Origin: a virus
Strand: one strand, 5' to 3'
IMG/VR virus record: IMGVR_UViG_3300042868_005407
Location: 1-44,623 of that record
Length of the DNA: 44,623 nt
Made by a program: the position numbers and the translations under genes
Shown here: positions 179 through 44,162 of the stretch, piece by piece
Numbering within the stretch: position 1 is the first letter of the stretch
Layout of the letters: each line of letters starts with the position of its first letter
Notes under the pieces: model-generated
Told to the model about the DNA's origin: nothing
Databases searched by the model: none
What the model saw: the letters and a program-made list of their open reading frames with translations, nothing else

Positions 179-3100
179 TATCTTGGTGAATAAAGATCTT
201 TAATATTAGTAATCATAACAAGCATTTTTCTATCTCCAGATATTTTCTTTCTTAATAATACTGAAGTAGTATAATGTCTAAACTTCTTTCTCTGAAATGG
301 AGGTTTAGCATAGTTAAGGTTTATAGGATTTAAAACTCTTATATAACCATTATCACCAGTATCCCAAATAGGTCTCTGAGCAAAACCTGGGATAGAAGGA
401 TTGAAGAATTCTCCTCTATCATCTGTCACATCCCAGAACTGATTAAACCTATATTTGTTTTCTTCTTTAGAAAATAGAATTTGTATACTAGTAGGTTGAA
501 TAACTGGATAAGCTAAAATAGCTTCTGGATTATTCTTAGGACTAAGATTCAATTTTAATAATCCTGATACTTGTTCTGTATTAAAGATTACAGCTTCATC
601 AAAATTGTAATTAAGCACATGGAATCTATCATAACAATTCTCAGCATACTTATATGCTTCCATAATATATTGAATACTTCTTAATGTATTAACATTCTGA
701 CCAGCGTTAACAATGAATTCTACTTCAAAAGGATAATCTATTCCATAATAGTTGCAATAAAGATCACATCTAACATTATGAATCCAAATACTTTTCTTAT
801 CAAAAGGATTAACAGTCATGAAAGTATTCTTTCCAGGCATGTTTAATGTTGGGTGCCAATCATGCCAGCCTAACCAACCCTCTGTTTTAGGATCATAACT
901 TATGGTCCAGGAAGCATCATTAAAAAACAAAGGACTATTAACATCTCCTAAACCAAATTCTAGACCTGTCTCAACTACTTTAAATCTATTTGAACCTAAG
1001 TACTTCAAAGTCTCTGTGATATCATCTCTAAGTTTATAATCAACTTTAGAAAAGTAAATTAAACCATTAAGGTTATCATACATAGACTGACATCCTATAC
1101 CTATTACAGGATTATCTTTAAGTTCAAAGTCAGGAAAATCTTTAGTTAATCTGTAAGGTAAGTACTGAGCAAACCACCACTTAAGATTTAGATTAGATAC
1201 TTCTTTAAGACCACTAGAAAGATTAAATATCTTTCCTTGATTTTGACTAATCCAGAATAATCCAGCTGGAGTATTAATAACACTTAATCTATTTTGACAA
1301 CTTGCATACTCATGAGATGAATCAACATTGATTACACTCTGCATTGGTTGAGAAAATAATCCGCCATCACCTAGTGTAAGCTTAGTACCTAATCCTGTTT
1401 CTAATTGATCTGTACCTTGAAACTGAACAGGAGAAGCGGCATCAAAGAAAATCATAGCACCACTTTTATTAACCGGTTTTATACAAGTAACAATATTAAG
1501 AAAATCAAAATAATTATTAGGTAAGAAAACTTTCCAACCATCTTTTAACCCTTCAAATTGAGCAGGCAAAGAATAGATTAATCTCTTGGGTCTATAAACA
1601 AAACAAGTCTCTGCAACATATGGATTATATGCTGGAGATTGCATGCTTGCCCATGATGCATAGTTAATAAACAGCTGAGAAATACTTAATGATTTATCAT
1701 ATTTGTAATAGTTACCCGATTTAATAATATTTGTAGTAAACAGATCCTTGCTATCACCTCCTGCGTAAGGATCAAAAAATCTTTGGTCTTGAGGTTCTCC
1801 ATAATCACGGTAAGCAACATTAATCTCACTCTCTACAAAGAAGTCTCTTACTCCTGAATTAAATAAATAGAACCAACCTTTGGCATCAAACTGAAAGGAT
1901 GTCAGTATGGTCATAAGAATATTATTGGCACAAGTATTACCATCTAATACATAATAAGCAGAGGGTGTAACAAGAGGTCCTGGGGTAGGACTAAAGACTG
2001 TAGTAATCCAAGTAAAAGCACTTGCTGTAAAATCATTAGTTTGAAACTCACTAAAGTCTGCCCAATACTTAGGATAGGGTAGCATCTGATGTTGTTTATA
2101 ATTGAATTGAGTACCATTAGGTTGTCCATATAACCAATCATAAAAAAACAAGAATGTATTTTTCTCTGTATATCTATTTACATAAACATCACCGCCAAAT
2201 AATACAGTAGTTGAATCTCCTTTACCAGGAACTATACCTCCTGCAGGAAAGAAAGTACCTGCTGCAAAAGTTACAGGAATAAAACATGGACTAACCGGTA
2301 TTGAAACAATATTATTAAGTTGACCATACTGATTATCTATTCTTACTTTTAAAGCACCATACCAAGAAGAACAAGTCTGTCCACTAGCTCCATCTATAGT
2401 AGTTCCATCTGTAACTGTAAAATTACAAAGTTCTTGAATAGTCTGTGGAATAGGACTTAATTCTGAAGCAGTATATCTTGTTTTATCTACAACAGATGGA
2501 TCAGGAATTGCTCTTGTTGTTTGAAGAGCTACACTTCTTTGTCTATATAGATTATTAACATTATAAGTATTATTCAACTGTAATATCTCAGGATTAATAT
2601 ACTGCTGATCTACTAATTCAGTTCTGAAGGTTGCTGGATTTCTACCTGTTAGATTATTATAAAAACCATGTGAGTGATATCTTACAGCAAAGTCTCTGTA
2701 CTTAAGCATAGCTCTAATTAATCTCATGAAAGAATCAGTACCTTGACTGAAGTAATTCATGAAAGTAGGTAATGCACTTACAGCATTAAGTAATGCAGGA
2801 GTTCTATTTTGAGCACCATCTTTCTCTTCTATATGTTGATCTGTACTACTTATAGCTGGATTTCCTGCAGCAGTACCTTGAGCTGTTAGTTGTGTCGTTG
2901 ATAAGGTAGTATTTGTAATCTGAGCACCAGTAATAGCTTGTGTTAATGGTAATCCTGATATCATCAATGCATTATAGCCTGAATAATTACCGTTTATAGA
3001 TGTCAATGTAGTAAACAAAGTAGGTAAATCTGTATTAGCAGGTGAGGCTCTGGTACCTGTTGGTAAGGGAGTATCTAAAGTTGTGGTTCCTGATGTAGAT

Positions 3101-5595
3101 CCAGTATTACTTCCATTAAAAGTATTTGTACCTATTGTAGTAGTTGAGTTCATAACATAAGGCGTTGTACCTCCATATGTTATAGGACCTACTGTAGTTG
3201 TACCCTTAAGGTCAACTTTATCTGTTAAATCATAAGTATTCTTAGTAAAGTAAACTTCCTCAAAAGACATACCTTGATATTTTGGTCTTTTCTTTGATGT
3301 ACTTCTTTCACCATTTAATTGAAGTACAGCATAACCTATACCAGCAATAGAAGAAAGAAGAAATACAAAGTCTGCAATAAGTTTCTCCTGAGGATGTTTC
3401 TCAGATAAATCAAACTTACCTACAACTTTACCTGAAGCATTTCCATAAATCCTGAACTCTTTTGCTGCAAGAAATGGATTATTAAAATTAGTATCTGGAG
3501 AGTGAAAGGTAAAGTAGTCTTGTTTAAAGTCACTATACTGCATATAATCACCGGCCGCTCCTGGAGTATAACTAAAAGGAGTAAGAGGTGCATTTGTATT
3601 TGCATTCTTGATACCACCAGGAGTTGTTATACAAGAGGCTGTCTTACTAGGTACATTTAGTAAAAAAGGATCATTTCTAAGATCGTTATAAGGATAGTTA
3701 GGATATAATCCTTGCTTACCTCCTGATCCTGGAATATCATACTGATGCATGTTATTAATGATACCCTTAGCAATGATAGTCTTATTACCATTACGGGATC
3801 CTCTCAAAATTCTATATCCTATAATACCTGGGATAAGGTTTCCATTGTTATCTCTAGGAGCTTTGATATTCTCAAACTTAACTCCCATGATTCTTATATT
3901 AGCACCACCTGGAGAATTTAAAGCAACATTAGAACCTAAAGTATCCTCAGGAAATTTATGATGTCTTATAGGAGTACCACACAGATCATAACTAGAAGGA
4001 AGAGTTCCTGGATAGGGCACACTTGTTACGGCTGTCCAAGGATGTGATGGATCATTAGCATTCCATATCTGTGGAGTCTTATCCGGATAGAATTCACTAG
4101 ACTCCCAATAACCCATATAACCTTCTTGAATAATACTACCTATTCCATCAGGAGCTAAGTTTGTACCTACAGGAAAACTTGTTCCTAGAATGGCTGTATT
4201 ATATGTTTCCCAAAAAGGACCGGGTGTAAATGTATTTCCTGTAGGAGCTAATAACATTAATTCTCCACTTGTTATTGGAAATGCAGGAACACTAGTTGGA
4301 TAAGCGGGTGTTGCAAATAGAGGTCCTTGTCTAGCTGGTCTTCCTGGAATATGATATTCATTAGATTTATCTCCTGTATCATATTCATATTGAATAAAAA
4401 AAGAATATACTTCATCGCGCATATAGCCAGTTAGATTATTACCCTTATGATAATAGTCAAATGGATATTCTACAGACTGCCACTTAGCAACAATTTGATT
4501 AGCTAAAGGTTGATAGTTAAAATCTTCCTTAGAAGTAGGTCCTACACGTATTAAGTAATCACCAACATTATACATAGCATCTGACTTATCTACAATAGGA
4601 GTCATGATTGGTAACTGCTCTATAGGAATAGATGGCCAAGTATTAAAAATTGTATCAAAGCTAAATCTTGTTTGTCTTGTTGAATATATTCCAGCTTGTC
4701 TTACAACAGTTTGTGCATTTACAACTTGACCTACACCTATTATAATCTCATCATAACGCAGATCCACACTGTCAATAAATACATCTAAAGATGTTGCTGA
4801 GTTATTATGCTCAAACAATCCTTGTATATTAGATACATACCAATCAGATATCTTCTGTGATTTTACAGCATAAGCCATAACTACAAAGTAACTTCCATTA
4901 AGAAGATTACCTCCAGGAACTCCCTTTTCTACACGAGGACAAATAGGATTAATAAAAAGAGCTAGTCTTAATTTATTACAATCAAGAGCTGGTGTGTTAT
5001 CACAAATAATACAACCTCCAGGTAAACTACCATTAGAATCAACACAGGTTTGAATATAAGGAACAGGAGTATTAATATTAGTAGTATTTGGTGGTGCGGG
5101 TGCTGGAAGAAAAGGATAGTTATTATCAGGATTTGTTATATCAATATCAAGATTTCTAGAAGGATTAATACCATCATCCCAATAAAGTTTGTAAGTACAA
5201 TCACTTGTAGAACGTGACACACCTTTAATAAGATTATCTTGATTAAATTTAAGACATTTGTCATTTACTATATACTGATATGCCGGTAACATAGTACCAC
5301 AATTACTCTCTATAAATAAGCCAATTTCTGAATTAATATTATCTGTAGAGTAAACAGCCCATTTGTCTTCAATAATATGAATAAATCCAATAATAGGATA
5401 CGGAGCTGAGACACATGATAGGTTAGCTGGCTCATTGCCAAGTTTACCTAAATCACCTGTGATAGAATTATTAATAACATTTCTACCTCTACTCCATTCA
5501 TTCTTGGGTAGGTGAAAATCATTAATATCTGTGTTAAGAGATTTGTCAAATGTCTTTGACTCTTCACTGCTAGTATTTTGTGAGTCTTGTGCCAT
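178..5595 (-). CDS. Large tail-hub / tail stabilisation (muzzle-type) protein, crAss-like
   Basis: A 1805-aa protein, the largest in the window. The N-terminus has the pattern expected of the crAss-like tail stabilisation protein (P22 gp10-like family): a short polar leader, then NEWSRGRNVINNSITGD, a GNEPAN motif, PYPIIGFI, STDNINSEIGLF and YWDDGINPSR. The rest is a long beta-rich, Gly/Thr/Asn/Pro-rich chain with no membrane segments. A Thr/Gly-rich low-complexity stretch lies around residues 795-850. It directly follows two ring-type proteins and is coupled at both ends by TAATG overlaps, which suggests co-assembly at the tail tip. Assignment rests on N-terminal motifs, size and position. 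Confidence 0.8.
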   Translation of the reverse strand: MAQDSQNTSSEESKTFDKSLNTDINDFHLPKNEWSRGRNVINNSITGDLGKLGNEPANLSCVSAPYPIIGFIHIIEDKWAVYSTDNINSEIGLFIESNCGTMLPAYQYIVNDKCLKFNQDNLIKGVSRSTSDCTYKLYWDDGINPSRNLDIDITNPDNNYPFLPAPAPPNTTNINTPVPYIQTCVDSNGSLPGGCIICDNTPALDCNKLRLALFINPICPRVEKGVPGGNLLNGSYFVVMAYAVKSQKISDWYVSNIQGLFEHNNSATSLDVFIDSVDLRYDEIIIGVGQVVNAQTVVRQAGIYSTRQTRFSFDTIFNTWPSIPIEQLPIMTPIVDKSDAMYNVGDYLIRVGPTSKEDFNYQPLANQIVAKWQSVEYPFDYYHKGNNLTGYMRDEVYSFFIQYEYDTGDKSNEYHIPGRPARQGPLFATPAYPTSVPAFPITSGELMLLAPTGNTFTPGPFWETYNTAILGTSFPVGTNLAPDGIGSIIQEGYMGYWESSEFYPDKTPQIWNANDPSHPWTAVTSVPYPGTLPSSYDLCGTPIRHHKFPEDTLGSNVALNSPGGANIRIMGVKFENIKAPRDNNGNLIPGIIGYRILRGSRNGNKTIIAKGIINNMHQYDIPGSGGKQGLYPNYPYNDLRNDPFLLNVPSKTASCITTPGGIKNANTNAPLTPFSYTPGAAGDYMQYSDFKQDYFTFHSPDTNFNNPFLAAKEFRIYGNASGKVVGKFDLSEKHPQEKLIADFVFLLSSIAGIGYAVLQLNGERSTSKKRPKYQGMSFEEVYFTKNTYDLTDKVDLKGTTTVGPITYGGTTPYVMNSTTTIGTNTFNGSNTGSTSGTTTLDTPLPTGTRASPANTDLPTLFTTLTSINGNYSGYNALMISGLPLTQAITGAQITNTTLSTTQLTAQGTAAGNPAISSTDQHIEEKDGAQNRTPALLNAVSALPTFMNYFSQGTDSFMRLIRAMLKYRDFAVRYHSHGFYNNLTGRNPATFRTELVDQQYINPEILQLNNTYNVNNLYRQRSVALQTTRAIPDPSVVDKTRYTASELSPIPQTIQELCNFTVTDGTTIDGASGQTCSSWYGALKVRIDNQYGQLNNIVSIPVSPCFIPVTFAAGTFFPAGGIVPGKGDSTTVLFGGDVYVNRYTEKNTFLFFYDWLYGQPNGTQFNYKQHQMLPYPKYWADFSEFQTNDFTASAFTWITTVFSPTPGPLVTPSAYYVLDGNTCANNILMTILTSFQFDAKGWFYLFNSGVRDFFVESEINVAYRDYGEPQDQRFFDPYAGGDSKDLFTTNIIKSGNYYKYDKSLSISQLFINYASWASMQSPAYNPYVAETCFVYRPKRLIYSLPAQFEGLKDGWKVFLPNNYFDFLNIVTCIKPVNKSGAMIFFDAASPVQFQGTDQLETGLGTKLTLGDGGLFSQPMQSVINVDSSHEYASCQNRLSVINTPAGLFWISQNQGKIFNLSSGLKEVSNLNLKWWFAQYLPYRLTKDFPDFELKDNPVIGIGCQSMYDNLNGLIYFSKVDYKLRDDITETLKYLGSNRFKVVETGLEFGLGDVNSPLFFNDASWTISYDPKTEGWLGWHDWHPTLNMPGKNTFMTVNPFDKKSIWIHNVRCDLYCNYYGIDYPFEVEFIVNAGQNVNTLRSIQYIMEAYKYAENCYDRFHVLNYNFDEAVIFNTEQVSGLLKLNLSPKNNPEAILAYPVIQPTSIQILFSKEENKYRFNQFWDVTDDRGEFFNPSIPGFAQRPIWDTGDNGYIRVLNPINLNYAKPPFQRKKFRHYTTSVLLRKKISGDRKMLVMITNIKDLYSPR

Positions 5596-33509: not shown

Positions 33510-33791
33510 TCATAGTTCTACAGCTTTCCATTTAGGCCCATCAGGATGCGGGCATTCAGAATCCATAGATCTTAATTTCATAGCTAAGCTACAACCACAA
33601 ACACCACAACAAGGTTGAGTACCAGTGATTACACATTTTGATCCTTGTGGATCTAGTTCTGGGCAAGTACTGCAGATCTTCATTCTTTTATTATGAATCT
33701 TCTCTACAGGTTCCTTCTTGATCAGACTGTTTAGAAAGCCCTCCCATATCAGGGCTTTGTTCTTCCATATTGTTTTTATTTTTTCTAGCAT
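33510..33791 (-). CDS. Cys-rich zinc-cluster protein
   Basis: A 93-aa protein with a helical N-terminus (MLEKIKTIWKNKALIWEGFL) and a Cys cluster: CSTCPEL, KCVITGTQPCCGVCGCSLAM, then SECPHPDG. The cysteine spacing points to one or two bound zinc ions. From memory, small proteins with this pattern occur beside terminase genes in Bacteroidota phages. It overlaps the end of the upstream IHF-like gene by 101 nt in another frame, unusually deep for this compact genome. Starting at an internal ATG (33683) would remove the overlap but lose the helix. Confidence 0.65.
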   Translation of the reverse strand: MLEKIKTIWKNKALIWEGFLNSLIKKEPVEKIHNKRMKICSTCPELDPQGSKCVITGTQPCCGVCGCSLAMKLRSMDSECPHPDGPKWKAVEL

Positions 33792-34134
33792 CTCTTATTA
33801 CTTTAAATTTTTCTTCTCTCTCTTGTACTAAACTCTTAATCTTCTCAAGCTTTTCTATTCTGTCTGTAAGATCCATCTTCATCCTGTAACCTGCAAACTT
33901 TCCTTCAACTCTAAGAATTGTAGCTTTATGTTTTTCTACAGTATCTGCAATCGTCCAATGCTTTACTCTAAAGGTACCAAAGTTTTGAATTCTTATCTCA
34001 CCATAGGTTAATTCAGACATGTGCTTTCTTATGTTCTCCCAATAGAAATTAACTAAATTATTTATTAAGTCTTCTGGTAGATTTAACTCTTCAGCAGTAG
34101 GTTTTTTAAAGTCTTTAGCTTTCTTGGGTATCAA
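33691..34134 (-). CDS. IHF/HU-like DNA-binding protein
   Basis: A 147-aa protein. Residues about 20-75 (INNLVNFYWENIRKHMSELT then GEIRIQNFGTFRVKHWTIAD) fit the HU/IHF plan: two helices that dimerise, then G-x-[IV]-x-[IV]-x-x-[FL]-G-T-F into the beta arm. This form of IHF-like protein is common in crAss-like phages. The C-terminus is a long Lys/Glu helix (IEKLEKIKSLVQEREEKFKV). It may bend DNA for packaging or regulate late transcription. The gene overlaps its upstream neighbour by 20 nt and its downstream neighbour by 101 nt. Confidence 0.72.
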   Translation of the reverse strand: MIPKKAKDFKKPTAEELNLPEDLINNLVNFYWENIRKHMSELTYGEIRIQNFGTFRVKHWTIADTVEKHKATILRVEGKFAGYRMKMDLTDRIEKLEKIKSLVQEREEKFKVIRDARKNKNNMEEQSPDMGGLSKQSDQEGTCREDS

Positions 34135-34889: not shown

Positions 34890-35417
34890 CTATCTTTTAG
34901 ATAATATCAGAATGCCTGTGAGTGCAGCTGTTGAACCAAACAGCCATTTTCTATGTTTCTTTAATTTTGTTACATCTTTCTCTAGCTTAGCAATCTTTAT
35001 AGAATCTAAGACCATTACCTGGGCTTGACTATCCATGATTATGCTATCTGTATAAATAATGTCTCTAAGATCTTTAATATAAATACTATCTTTTGAAATG
35101 ATTGAATCACATGTGCTTACAACCATAGGTAGAATGCTATCACAAGGAATAGAGTCATGTTGGATTATAGTTTTAATCTTAGTTCTCCACTTAGTTATGT
35201 ACTCTAGTCTTACAGAGTCATTACTATTAGCTACAAGCTTTAAGCTATCGGCTATTCTATTTTGATTTCTTATAGTTGTCTTTAGACTATCTTTAAGATG
35301 ATCAGTTTCTACAGCTTCAGTATCATCACACTGTCTGGTTAATAGGCCAAACATTATAACAACAGCTGTTATAAGAATCATTTTGACTTTGTCAAAAGAA
35401 TATTTTTTTTCTGTCAT
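34890..35417 (-). CDS. Spanin-like membrane-anchored coiled-coil protein
   Basis: A 175-aa protein with an N-terminal membrane segment (about residues 11-27, MILITAVVIMFGLLTR), a cysteine just after it (RQCDD), a long Ser/Asp/Ile/Lys-rich helical region and a weak C-terminal hydrophobic segment (WLFGSTAALTGILILS). Position at the end of the lysis cassette and the N-anchored, coil-rich layout fit an Rz-type inner-membrane spanin or a unimolecular variant. The second hydrophobic stretch would allow bridging or a hairpin. Sequence alone does not prove the role. Confidence 0.55.
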   Translation of the reverse strand: MTEKKYSFDKVKMILITAVVIMFGLLTRQCDDTEAVETDHLKDSLKTTIRNQNRIADSLKLVANSNDSVRLEYITKWRTKIKTIIQHDSIPCDSILPMVVSTCDSIISKDSIYIKDLRDIIYTDSIIMDSQAQVMVLDSIKIAKLEKDVTKLKKHRKWLFGSTAALTGILILSKR

Positions 35418-35791
35418 TACTTCTTAAGCATTTTAATAAAGAGCCTGAACATACTTTGTCCAGTTATTTTTTCTATATTTTCATCTATACTAAGTAACTC
35501 ACTATAAACAATATAGCCAGCTATAATCTTGGTAGCAGGAACGTCTGGAAAAAACTGTCTTTGTATAACATGTGATACTAGTACAGCTACACCATATATT
35601 ATAAACTTAGGAAATACAGCTCTGAATTTTCTTGATGTTATAGGCTCCCCTTGTTTATAAGCAGCAGTCATTGCAGCTATGGTATCCATAGTAACAAAGA
35701 ATCCTACTAATAATAGTATACTATAAACTGGTTGAAAATAAACTACAAGTGATCCTAGTAATGCTAATAAGTGTTGCTTAATTGTTCCCAT
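35417..35791 (-). CDS. Holin (phage_holin_4 / TcdE-like type)
   Basis: A 124-aa protein with three hydrophobic segments (about 8-38, 60-76, 87-100). Strings VTMDTIAAMTAAYKQGEPIT, SRKFRAVFPKFIIYGVAVLV and IAGYIVYSELLSIDENIEKI match the holin family typical of Gram-positive and Bacteroidota phages, in which a D-T/N motif ends TM1 and an E-x-L-S-I-x-E-N motif ends TM3. It would pierce the inner membrane at lysis. It overlaps both neighbours: 14 nt with the upstream membrane gene and 1 nt with the spanin-like gene. Confidence 0.8.
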   Translation of the reverse strand: MGTIKQHLLALLGSLVVYFQPVYSILLLVGFFVTMDTIAAMTAAYKQGEPITSRKFRAVFPKFIIYGVAVLVSHVIQRQFFPDVPATKIIAGYIVYSELLSIDENIEKITGQSMFRLFIKMLKK

Positions 35792-36035
35792 TTTCTTCTT
35801 CTGTATTGTGCTTTTTATTAATCCACTTATCTACAGAGGCTATACCAAAACAAGCTATTGTTATAACTTGGAATGAGTTGAAGATAAACTCATTAACCAG
35901 TAAAGGTTTATTAGCTATTCCTGTGCCTATATCTACAAAGGCAAAAAGGATCATTACTATAAAGGCTATAAAGCCTACTACTGCTTTTTCATTGATGCTG
36001 TTGTTGTCATCAAACATTGTCCAAAACTTTTTCAT
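35778..36035 (-). CDS. Small two-TM membrane protein, possible second holin or antiholin
   Basis: An 85-aa protein with two membrane segments (about 19-37, VVGFIAFIVMILFAFVDIGT, and 49-66, FNSFQVITIACFGIASVD) and a charged C-terminus (KWINKKHNTEEENGNN). The N-terminal FDDNNSINEKAVVGFI pattern occurs, from memory, in lysis regions of Bacteroidota phages. Its place between the PAS protein and the holin suggests a holin partner or regulator. Confidence 0.62.
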   Translation of the reverse strand: MKKFWTMFDDNNSINEKAVVGFIAFIVMILFAFVDIGTGIANKPLLVNEFIFNSFQVITIACFGIASVDKWINKKHNTEEENGNN

Positions 36036-36054: not shown

Positions 36055-37164
36055 TTATTTTTTAGCACCATCTTGTGTGGCATATTTTATTCCCATGATT
36101 GTTCCTACTATTGAAAAAGCATTAGTCAACAAAACACTAAACATATTGCTCCAAGTTGAACCAATTATCTGTGTGTCTTGCTTTGTTATAATAGCTACCC
36201 AGTATAATATTGTTGTTACAACTCCAACTCCAACTATAACAGCCAATGCAACTCTAACAATTATTTTTATTAGCTCACTTTGGCTTTTTTTCATCATCAC
36301 ATCTAAGTCATTTAAAGCTGCATCCTTCTCTATCTCTATTGCATTCTTAAGTTTTTGAGAGTTTTCCAACTCTACTGTTAAAGTCTTTGTAAGCTCATCT
36401 ATTTTTTTCTTATTGTTTACAGACTCAGTAATATCAGTTGCAATCTTAACTACATCGGTAATATTTCCTTTGCTGTCAAGTACAGGATTGTAAGATGCTT
36501 GTAAGTAAATAGTAGAGCCATCTACTTTTTTTCTTTCAAATACTCCATCAAAGTACTTACCCTTTCTTAGACTTTCCCAAAACTTAGCATACTCATCAGA
36601 TTTAGAATACTCATAGCTTACAAAAATACTGTGGTGCTTGCCAATGACTTTATTTTTCTCATTAGCTTTAAAGCCCATTGTTTGTAAAAATATAGAATTG
36701 ACATCTGTTATAAAACCTTCAGTATTAAAACTAATAAGAGCTGTACTTCTGTTGATTGCATCTATTTGTTTCTTGCTGTTGACAATTAAACTAATGTCAG
36801 TGGCAATCTTCATTATCTTGGTGATCTTATTATCCTCATCAAAAATAGGATTATAAGTTGCTTGAAGATTGATAAGACTTCCATCTTTTTTTCTTCTCTC
36901 AAACTCCCCTTGATAATACTTGCCACTTCTTAAGATGTCCCAAAACTTTTCATATTCAAGTGATCTTGCATAATCTTCACATACAAAAATACTATGGTGT
37001 TTACCAATAATTTCTTGATGATTACCCTTACCATAACCCATTGCTTCTAGGAAGATGTCATTGACCCCTGTTATAACTCCAGTAAGGTCAAAGTAAATTA
37101 TAGCATTGCTTCTGTTTATTGCTTCAAGCCTGCTTAATAACTCTTCTTTAGATAGGTTTTTCAT
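36055..37164 (-). CDS. Tandem PAS sensor fused to a two-TM membrane domain, in the lysis cassette
   Basis: A 369-aa protein. Residues 14-125 and 135-246 are two similar PAS/PAC domains, alike enough to be a tandem duplication: AINRS, GKHHSIFV, KFW, LR-x-GKY, FER-x-K-x-DGS, LQA-x-YNP and IATDI occur in both. The form matches the chemoreceptor/BdlA-type PAS. A coiled coil (about 250-298) leads to TM1 (about 300-326, IIVRVALAVIVGVGVVTTIL) and TM2 (about 341-361, MFSVLLTNAFSIVGTIMGIK). There is no kinase, methyl-accepting or GGDEF domain. The sensor part would face the cytoplasm. It sits 3 nt from the endolysin gene and 19 nt from the next membrane gene. A signal-gated holin or lysis regulator is my inference; membrane-tethered host signal interference is the alternative. 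Confidence 0.82.
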   Translation of the reverse strand: MKNLSKEELLSRLEAINRSNAIIYFDLTGVITGVNDIFLEAMGYGKGNHQEIIGKHHSIFVCEDYARSLEYEKFWDILRSGKYYQGEFERRKKDGSLINLQATYNPIFDEDNKITKIMKIATDISLIVNSKKQIDAINRSTALISFNTEGFITDVNSIFLQTMGFKANEKNKVIGKHHSIFVSYEYSKSDEYAKFWESLRKGKYFDGVFERKKVDGSTIYLQASYNPVLDSKGNITDVVKIATDITESVNNKKKIDELTKTLTVELENSQKLKNAIEIEKDAALNDLDVMMKKSQSELIKIIVRVALAVIVGVGVVTTILYWVAIITKQDTQIIGSTWSNMFSVLLTNAFSIVGTIMGIKYATQDGAKK

Positions 37165-37167
37165 TTA

Positions 37168-37713
37168 TTAGAACTCTTTTAGTAAAGTGTATGTAAAAAA
37201 CTTTTGCTTACTAGACTCAGCAGCAAACAATATTTTAGCAAAGTCTGCTGGATTGTTAAGTACTTGACAACCGGCTGACCACTTGTCTATAAGCTTAGAA
37301 GTAAACTTCTCATTAGCTCTGTGGATGTTTATACCAAACAAGCCTTTGTCTATAGTAGCTGTTTCTTCAGCTTTGTCATCAAGATTTTTGTCACGGAATA
37401 CCTCAACCGGTTTAACTTGACAAAAAGCTTTGTACTTTCCTTGGTGCATACCTATAGACCAAGTATCTTTATACTGGTTAGCTTTAAGTAATGCAGTACC
37501 TTTTGGATTAAGCAAGTTCTTTAACCAATGTGTACCTGGGTTAGTAGTGCATGTAAACCATTCTACTTTATCACCATATACCATACCAAACAAGTCATCA
37601 AACTGGTTAGGTAAGTTGGCTGTAGATCTAATGCCTACAAAGTGAAATGGATGCCATTGGTAATTGTGCTTAGCAAATTCTGCTTTTAGTTCTTCTATTG
37701 TGTATTTTTTCAT
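37168..37713 (-). CDS. Endolysin candidate, L,D-transpeptidase (YkuD)-like
   Basis: A 181-aa protein with an alpha/beta body (FHFVGIRSTANLPNQFDDLF; DTWSIGMHQGKYKAFCQV). A catalytic-type pattern is present: H131 in FGINIHRAN, then W-S146-A-G-C149-Q, the H...S-x-G-C arrangement of YkuD-type cysteine enzymes acting on peptidoglycan. There is no signal peptide, so release would need the holin. It opens the lysis cassette. In phages such domains probably cut peptide cross-links rather than form them. Family confidence is moderate; no zinc-protease or muramidase motif competes. Confidence 0.66.
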   Translation of the reverse strand: MKKYTIEELKAEFAKHNYQWHPFHFVGIRSTANLPNQFDDLFGMVYGDKVEWFTCTTNPGTHWLKNLLNPKGTALLKANQYKDTWSIGMHQGKYKAFCQVKPVEVFRDKNLDDKAEETATIDKGLFGINIHRANEKFTSKLIDKWSAGCQVLNNPADFAKILFAAESSKQKFFTYTLLKEF

Positions 37714-43895: not shown

Positions 43896-44162
43896 TTACA
43901 ATACACAAATAATATCCGGTTCGCGCATAATTAAATATTCTTTTTCTTCCCATTCAAAAATGATTCCTGAGTGCTGACCATATTGAACAAGATCTCCTAC
44001 TTTAACATCAGCTGAAACCTTCTCTCCTATGGCCATTACTTTTCCACGAGTGGAAGGAGGCAGTTCTTTTTTCATAGTAATTAATCCGGAGGCTCTTACC
44101 TCTTCTGTCTCTTGATCTGTTGGTGAAATGATCACCCTGTTAGCTAATGGTTTTACTTTCAT
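43896..44162 (-). CDS. groES: GroES-type co-chaperonin
   Basis: An 88-aa protein of normal Cpn10 length: MKVKPLANRVIISPTDQETE at the start, a mobile-loop region (EVRASGLITMKKELPPS), TRGKVMAIGEK, VKVGDLVQYGQHSGI and YLIMREPDIICVL at the end. It would cap host GroEL and assist folding of phage proteins, probably the capsid or fibres. Mobile-loop residues differ from the bacterial G-G-I-[VI]-[LI] form (here S-G-L-I-T), which may tune GroEL binding. The ATG is preceded by AAACCAACAAT. It is followed by a hairpin and a terminator. Confidence 0.92.
   Translation of the reverse strand: MKVKPLANRVIISPTDQETEEVRASGLITMKKELPPSTRGKVMAIGEKVSADVKVGDLVQYGQHSGIIFEWEEKEYLIMREPDIICVL

Follow-up and report, generated by a model that had tools for sequence, protein, structure and literature searches.

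A tandem-PAS protein with a C-terminal membrane hairpin in phage lysis cassettes, a candidate signal-controlled regulator of lysis

The window analyzed here, a stretch of 44,623 nucleotides of viral DNA (IMG/VR record IMGVR_UViG_3300042868_005407), encodes on its minus strand, at positions 36055–37164, a 369-aa protein composed of two PAS domains, a coiled coil and two transmembrane (TM) segments, which quite probably regulates phage lysis as a one-component membrane protein under the control of a signal. Its reading frame, domain content and predicted fold (Pfam, AlphaFold) and at least 241 relatives define the protein, and its architecture and gene neighborhood strongly suggest control of lysis, with a likely function in lysis timing. 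The carriers are many uncultured phages, probably of Bacteroidota. A broader reading, to which we give slightly better than an even chance, is that a widespread group of phages, probably of aquatic Bacteroidota, time lysis by true signal transduction, using one membrane hairpin that is either fused to a tandem-PAS sensor or served by a complete histidine kinase-receiver relay encoded by the phage, and that is exchanged among unrelated phages.

The sensory half of the protein consists of PAS domain 1 (residues 14–125; 36790–37125, minus strand), recognized by Pfam, by its fold and by its structural neighbors DosP, MmoS, NifL and FixL, and PAS domain 2 (residues 135–246; 36427–36762, minus strand), recognized by Pfam and pairwise alignment. 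Pfam matches PAS_3 (E = 1e-23) and PAS_9 (3e-18) in two stretches each, the PAS_3 score of 83.5 bits lying far above the curated cut-off of 25.6, and the AlphaFold model agrees on the PAS fold. The two domains are 55% identical in pairwise alignment, which points to an internal duplication. They are followed by a signaling helix or coiled coil (residues 247–300; 36265–36426, minus strand), which recurs in the two-component variant described below, by TM1 (residues about 301–327; 36184–36264, minus strand), delimited by hydropathy and the model, and by TM2 (residues about 339–362; 36079–36150, minus strand), delimited by alignment and hydropathy. AlphaFold predicts two PAS folds, a single helix from 246 to 327, unbroken, that takes the coiled coil straight into TM1, and a further helix from 332 to 364, with a mean pLDDT of 65 that is about 80 for PAS1 and low for the hairpin; the predicted topology of the hairpin is N-in/C-in. 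Residues 331–363, comprising TM2 (WSNMFSVLLTNAFSIVGTIMGIKYA), are invariant in an alignment of 50 PAS-form homologues and nearly so in the two-component form, and this segment is rich in polar residues and contains a GxxxG motif. Pfam finds two PAS domains and no output domain: the scan detects neither HisKA/HATPase domains nor the methyl-accepting MCPsignal domain by which a chemoreceptor of the MCP or BdlA type, the latter being the comparison drawn in the original prediction, is recognized. The original prediction, made from the sequence alone, had placed two PAS/PAC domains at 14–125 and 135–246, followed by a coiled coil and two C-terminal TM segments with no output domain, and Pfam, the AlphaFold helix and hydropathy agree with it on each of these points.

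The gene is embedded in a compact lysis cassette whose genes all lie on one strand, separated by gaps of 3 to 19 nt or overlapping. It begins 3 nt after the gene for a 181-aa endolysin (37168–37713, minus strand) of the phrog_3000/phrog_33083 type (2e-35 for phrog_3000 and 2e-19 for the endolysin family phrog_33083), homologues of which are fused to PG_binding_1, and it ends 19 nt before the gene for tm85 (35778–36035, minus strand), an 85-aa protein with two TM segments that, given its linkage and a phage homologue, is a candidate holin or antiholin and a likely partner. Further downstream follow a 124-aa holin of the Phage_holin_4_1 family (35417–35791, minus strand; Pfam 1e-8 and phrog_199 holin) and a 175-aa protein (34890–35417, minus strand) that looks spanin-like from its hydrophobic segments at the N- and C-terminus and has no family match in Pfam or PHROGs. 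No terminator-like site is predicted at the junction of the PAS-hairpin gene with either the endolysin gene or tm85. In Flavobacterium phage immuto (NC_055915), the tm85 homologue gp192 sits beside the annotated endolysin gp191 and holin gp190, and tm85 is thus an ordinary lysis-cassette gene. The earlier placement of the gene between an endolysin candidate and two small membrane proteins, one of them a clear holin, is therefore upheld by the Pfam and PHROGs matches of the neighbors, the holin being the product of 35417–35791 and the 85-aa neighbor belonging to a separate two-TM family. Elsewhere in the window, a gene at 33691–34134 resembles a bacterial DNA-binding (IHF/HU-like) protein by a weak Pfam match, and one at 43896–44162 resembles, by eye, a GroES-like co-chaperonin.

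Association with lysis genes is also found outside the window. The loci examined are mostly contig fragments, many of them cut by contig ends, and linkage was counted in 35 dereplicated loci flanked on each side by at least 2 kb. The PAS gene has an endolysin gene no more than 1 kb away in 34 of these 35 (L023 is the exception), confirming the expectation of the original prediction that PAS-TM-TM homologues would be found beside phage lysis genes, and 27 of the 35 have tm85 at a distance of at most 100 nt, on the upstream side in some loci and on the downstream side in others. The endolysins belong to four unrelated families (GH19, amidase-like, GH24 and M15), sometimes two at once; across all loci, many of them cut by contig ends, the types are GH19 (26), amidase-like (17), GH24 with M15 (17), GH24 with amidase (13), others (9) and none (4). 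Linkage that persists through changes of gene order, enzyme type and lineage makes chance placement unlikely. Neither of the two main holin clusters is represented within 2.5 kb in 19 of the 35 loci, although holins may have gone undetected there since the profiles used are not exhaustive. Other membrane proteins accompany the gene in some loci. A probable unimolecular spanin, with an N-terminal lipobox-like signal and a C-terminal TM segment, is encoded close upstream of the PAS gene (L022, 221–697; a cluster present in 10 loci), and a 200-aa protein with an N-terminal TM segment adjoins it in three loci (L027, 7138–7740; also L056 and L074), appearing GAF-like by eye with only a weak Pfam match. 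Between tm85 and a GH19 endolysin, beside a LydA-like 131-aa holin candidate, five loci (L103, 5273–6374; also L117, L120, L131 and L134) encode a membrane protein with a 4HB_MCP_1 sensor bundle (Pfam 1e-7), the third type of sensory domain to appear among these lysis genes.

The best 80 of the at least 241 IMG/VR relatives are 84–100% identical to the window protein over nearly the full length. None of 50,697 phage records searched contains a full-length relative; MT836939.1 and Listeria phage records, which carry no annotation, match the PAS part only. The PAS-hairpin gene is more conserved than the terminase and other neighbors: in the same locus pairs it is 84–97% identical, compared with about 60–65% for TerL and, outside the nearest relatives, 39–41% for the endolysin. 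Its dN/dS is about 0.05–0.09, and its divergence at fourfold sites is 0.31–0.38 vs. 0.56–0.63 for TerL (pairs with L014, L026, L029, L035, L051 and L077), the lower value indicating transfer of the gene from phage to phage, with arrival in lysis cassettes. It is thus under constraint and at the same time exchanged between phages. Note also that the number of relatives, the dN/dS values and the linkage to endolysins in 34 of 35 loci indicate a real reading frame rather than a chance one. The carriers of the PAS form span different phage lineages: the terminase of the window, distantly similar to that of crAss-like phages (about 25%), was found in 7 of the 18 PAS-carrying records searched, the others, including records of 118–272 kb, having none of this type, and one carrier (L018) has an immuto-like GH19 cassette. 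The major capsid family PF17236, tried as a lineage marker, gave no matches, and the controls likewise gave none.

The coiled-coil-TM-TM module also occurs without PAS domains. In loci retrieved via tm85, it is part of an operon of three genes in this order: first a histidine kinase located in the membrane, which in most cases carries one PAS domain, then a response regulator made of a single domain, and last a stand-alone hairpin protein of 190 aa that consists of a short N-terminal domain, a long coil and the TM hairpin. In the locus L162, for example, the kinase lies at 2183–3421, the receiver at 3418–3855 and the hairpin at 3855–4427, followed by tm85, an M15 endolysin and a holin; Pfam identifies HATPase_c (3e-13), Response_reg (3e-7) and PAS_3 in two-component loci. 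All 69 stand-alone hairpins with enough upstream sequence are preceded by receiver and kinase in the same order, some with an extra 0.3–1.1 kb between receiver and hairpin. The residues DDE...D...S...K are conserved in 46 receivers and RHDMHSG, the N-box, DNGRG and SGLGLN in 55 kinases, so that the H-, N- and G-boxes of the kinase and the DD, D, S/T and K positions of the receiver are all present; given these active-site motifs, the phosphorelay looks active. AlphaFold models the stand-alone hairpin, at moderate confidence (pLDDT 80), as one long helix plus a second TM helix. Profile alignment of the C-terminus of the window protein with the stand-alone family (hhalign probability 100%, E = 2.8e-49, 63% identity; per-record profile matches from 1e-44 to 1e-49) places their homology beyond doubt. 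In the contigs tested the two forms are mutually exclusive, a response regulator being present in 0 of 16 PAS-fusion contigs vs. 7 of 7 two-component contigs, and one record with the terminase type of the window (57%) carries the two-component form (G016/L221), a swap of form within a single lineage. A shared module in exclusive forms suggests one phage-specific membrane output whose input is either a fused sensor or a two-component system, and its position as the third gene of a two-component operon makes the passage of a signal to a membrane output much likelier than it would be for an isolated odd reading frame.

Two-component copies are less tightly tied to lysis genes, an endolysin lying within 2 kb in 6 of 23 dereplicated loci and none within that distance in the other 17, while at a distance of up to 3 kb 16 of the 23 have at least one of endolysin, tm85 and holin. 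Of six two-component records in which tm85 was found, five have it no more than about 6 kb from the operon; in the sixth (G013) the distance is about 158 kb. With these copies so often outside the lysis cassette, lysis may be only part of what the module controls. In three loci (L183, 4319–6573; L190; L196), reading of the sequences by eye shows the operon flanked by a sigma-factor-like gene on one side and by what look like structural genes on the other. A conserved protein of 176–179 aa follows the hairpin in many two-component loci (L162, 4429–4968; L183, 6576–7106).

The original prediction described a sensor fused to a holin-like membrane domain inside a phage lysis cassette; the fusion of sensor and hairpin and the linkage to lysis across lineages hold, and homology of the C-terminus to holins is not supported. 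Neither the full window protein nor the stand-alone hairpin proteins match a holin in Pfam or PHROGs, and a PDB search with the hairpin profile returned only coil-like chance matches. A match to phrog_1544 (E = 0.008) was dismissed as coiled-coil noise, as the stand-alone hairpin proteins did not reproduce it, and homology to tm85 was rejected (hhalign probability 0.4%). The hairpin does combine TM segments with a location in the lysis cassette, and ‘holin-like’ describes a resemblance of topology alone. The C-terminus equally lacks a match to chemotaxis or other known domains, the kind of match that the original prediction had named as counting against it. The hairpin is absent from the 50,697 phage records, and 400 genomes of the family to which the Winogradskyella genome of L083 belongs yielded two weak matches, neither covering TM2; the module would thus represent a new phage-specific family.

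As for the origin of the sensor, the PAS domains match MmoS, Aer and NifL in sequence and DosP, MmoS, NifL and FixL in fold, but these oxygen and redox sensors are a weak guide to the signal, since PAS folds share such likeness broadly. The Trp aligned in the FAD-binding proteins MmoS and Aer is Tyr or Phe in the window domains, and both domains are strongly conserved, including GKHH and YNP motifs. The closest bacterial PAS pairs (about 40–42%) are found in hybrid kinases from Winogradskyella and from a second Bacteroidia bacterium. A first scan of genome contigs found no relative; an alignment-based second scan found only sensor kinases and chemoreceptors of bacteria whose PAS domains are related, and neither the hairpin nor the full architecture at any bacterial locus. 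Viral contigs scanned with a bacterial PAS pair gave no viral relative. The simplest reading would be that the phage took over a sensor from a host and put a membrane switch of its own in place of the original output.

In the mechanism that we propose, a cytoplasmic signal (a cofactor, redox state, oxygen or a metabolite) would alter the PAS dimer, the altered dimer would twist the signaling helix, and the twisted helix would switch an oligomer of the TM hairpin, which would set the moment at which the inner membrane opens. The hairpin could do so by itself, forming a small gated channel or an oligomer like that of a pinholin, or through the neighboring tm85 or holin, which it would hold or release. 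In the two-component form, the target of the phosphorylated single-domain receiver would be the extra domain at the N-terminus of the hairpin protein. The identity of tm85 falls to about 40% while TM2 stays nearly identical, and constancy of TM2 beside variable neighbors slightly favors a self-assembling switch over binding of one variable partner, with tm85 as the likely partner if the hairpin binds instead.

The strong form of this signal-controlled regulator is a PAS-regulated holin, in which the hairpin itself makes the hole, with class II topology, and is opened directly by the PAS pair or the phosphorelay. The N-in/C-in layout with two TM segments, a near-invariant TM2 whose GxxxG suggests homo-oligomers, and the 19 of 35 loci lacking a main-cluster holin within 2.5 kb (by non-exhaustive profiles) speak for it; in the window, however, a recognizable Phage_holin_4_1 holin and tm85 adjoin the gene, and the hairpin has no sequence similarity to holins, and we regard this form as possible but on the unlikely side. 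Less probable still is that the PAS domains are a ligand-free dimerization part of a constitutive antiholin or scaffold. No cofactor residues can be assigned and the flavin-PAS Trp is replaced, as such a role would allow, but the strong conservation of both domains, GKHH and YNP included, is at odds with it, and the same output is elsewhere served by a catalytically conserved histidine kinase, implying a regulated input.

We also weighed a cargo gene, rather unlikely in our judgment: the module would respond to a host signal by altering the membrane for some end other than lysis (e.g., superinfection exclusion, energy state or takeover) and would merely be parked among lysis genes, the lysis region being, in this reading, a common landing site for accessory genes. 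The mobility of the PAS-hairpin gene and the two-component copies away from endolysins, near a sigma-like gene and structural genes, would fit such cargo, yet in the window the gene lies within the cassette, with the endolysin 3 nt before it, tm85 19 nt after it and no predicted terminator-like site at these junctions, and it stays with lysis genes despite many rearrangements and across four families of endolysin. Finally, the resemblance of the PAS domains to Bacteroidota sensor kinases (about 42%) might hint that misassembly had joined a receptor gene of bacterial origin to a virus contig. This is ruled out by how many loci there are and how widely they are spread: at least 241 are viral and surrounded by terminase, tail and lysis genes, the 400 genomes of the family of the bacterial relative lack the hairpin, and the full architecture did not turn up at any bacterial locus.

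The usual account of lysis timing invokes accumulation of the holin and loss of the membrane potential, and to our knowledge few external inputs are recognized, T4 lysis inhibition being one example. If the signal-controlled regulator reading is true, lytic phages measure the state of host or environment (e.g., redox or energy) and then decide when to burst the cell, a new protein family gives functions to hundreds of unannotated aquatic-virus genes, and which signal tells a lytic phage to lyse becomes a directly testable question. In the open-access literature searched we found no paper reporting a phage lysis cassette with PAS or two-component genes, in line with the original prediction, whose author knew of no described lysis system of this architecture. 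The output module belongs to no known family, and no lysis system with PAS or phosphorelay input is known to have been described, although the role could yet be that of an ordinary antiholin with an attached sensor.

Known systems resemble parts of this arrangement. In T4 lysis inhibition, the holin T is controlled by the antiholins RI and RIII, of which RI is periplasmic and senses superinfection; there too the condition of the infected cell influences lysis time through a regulator, in the membrane or the cytoplasm, that the phage encodes, but the T4 system has no PAS domain, kinase or receiver. Class II holins such as the pinholin S21 have two TM segments and a GxxxG in TM2, like the window hairpin with its predicted N-in/C-in topology, whereas S21 lacks a sensor or coiled coil and the window hairpin lacks a family match. 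Tandem-PAS sensors (MmoS, NifL, DosP, Aer-type receptors and Bacteroidota hybrid kinases) share the PAS domains, but their outputs are kinase, methyl-accepting or phosphodiesterase domains in place of a TM hairpin. The cassette of Flavobacterium phage immuto has the order tm85 homologue, GH19 endolysin, holin, but no PAS-hairpin or two-component genes were found in it. A phosphorelay also figures in the ‘lytic deferment’ proposed for CtrA in phages of Alphaproteobacteria, where it would synchronize lysis with the state of the host (PMC9437464); that proposal concerns a host response regulator acting on transcription, whereas here the kinase, the receiver and the membrane output are all encoded by the phage.
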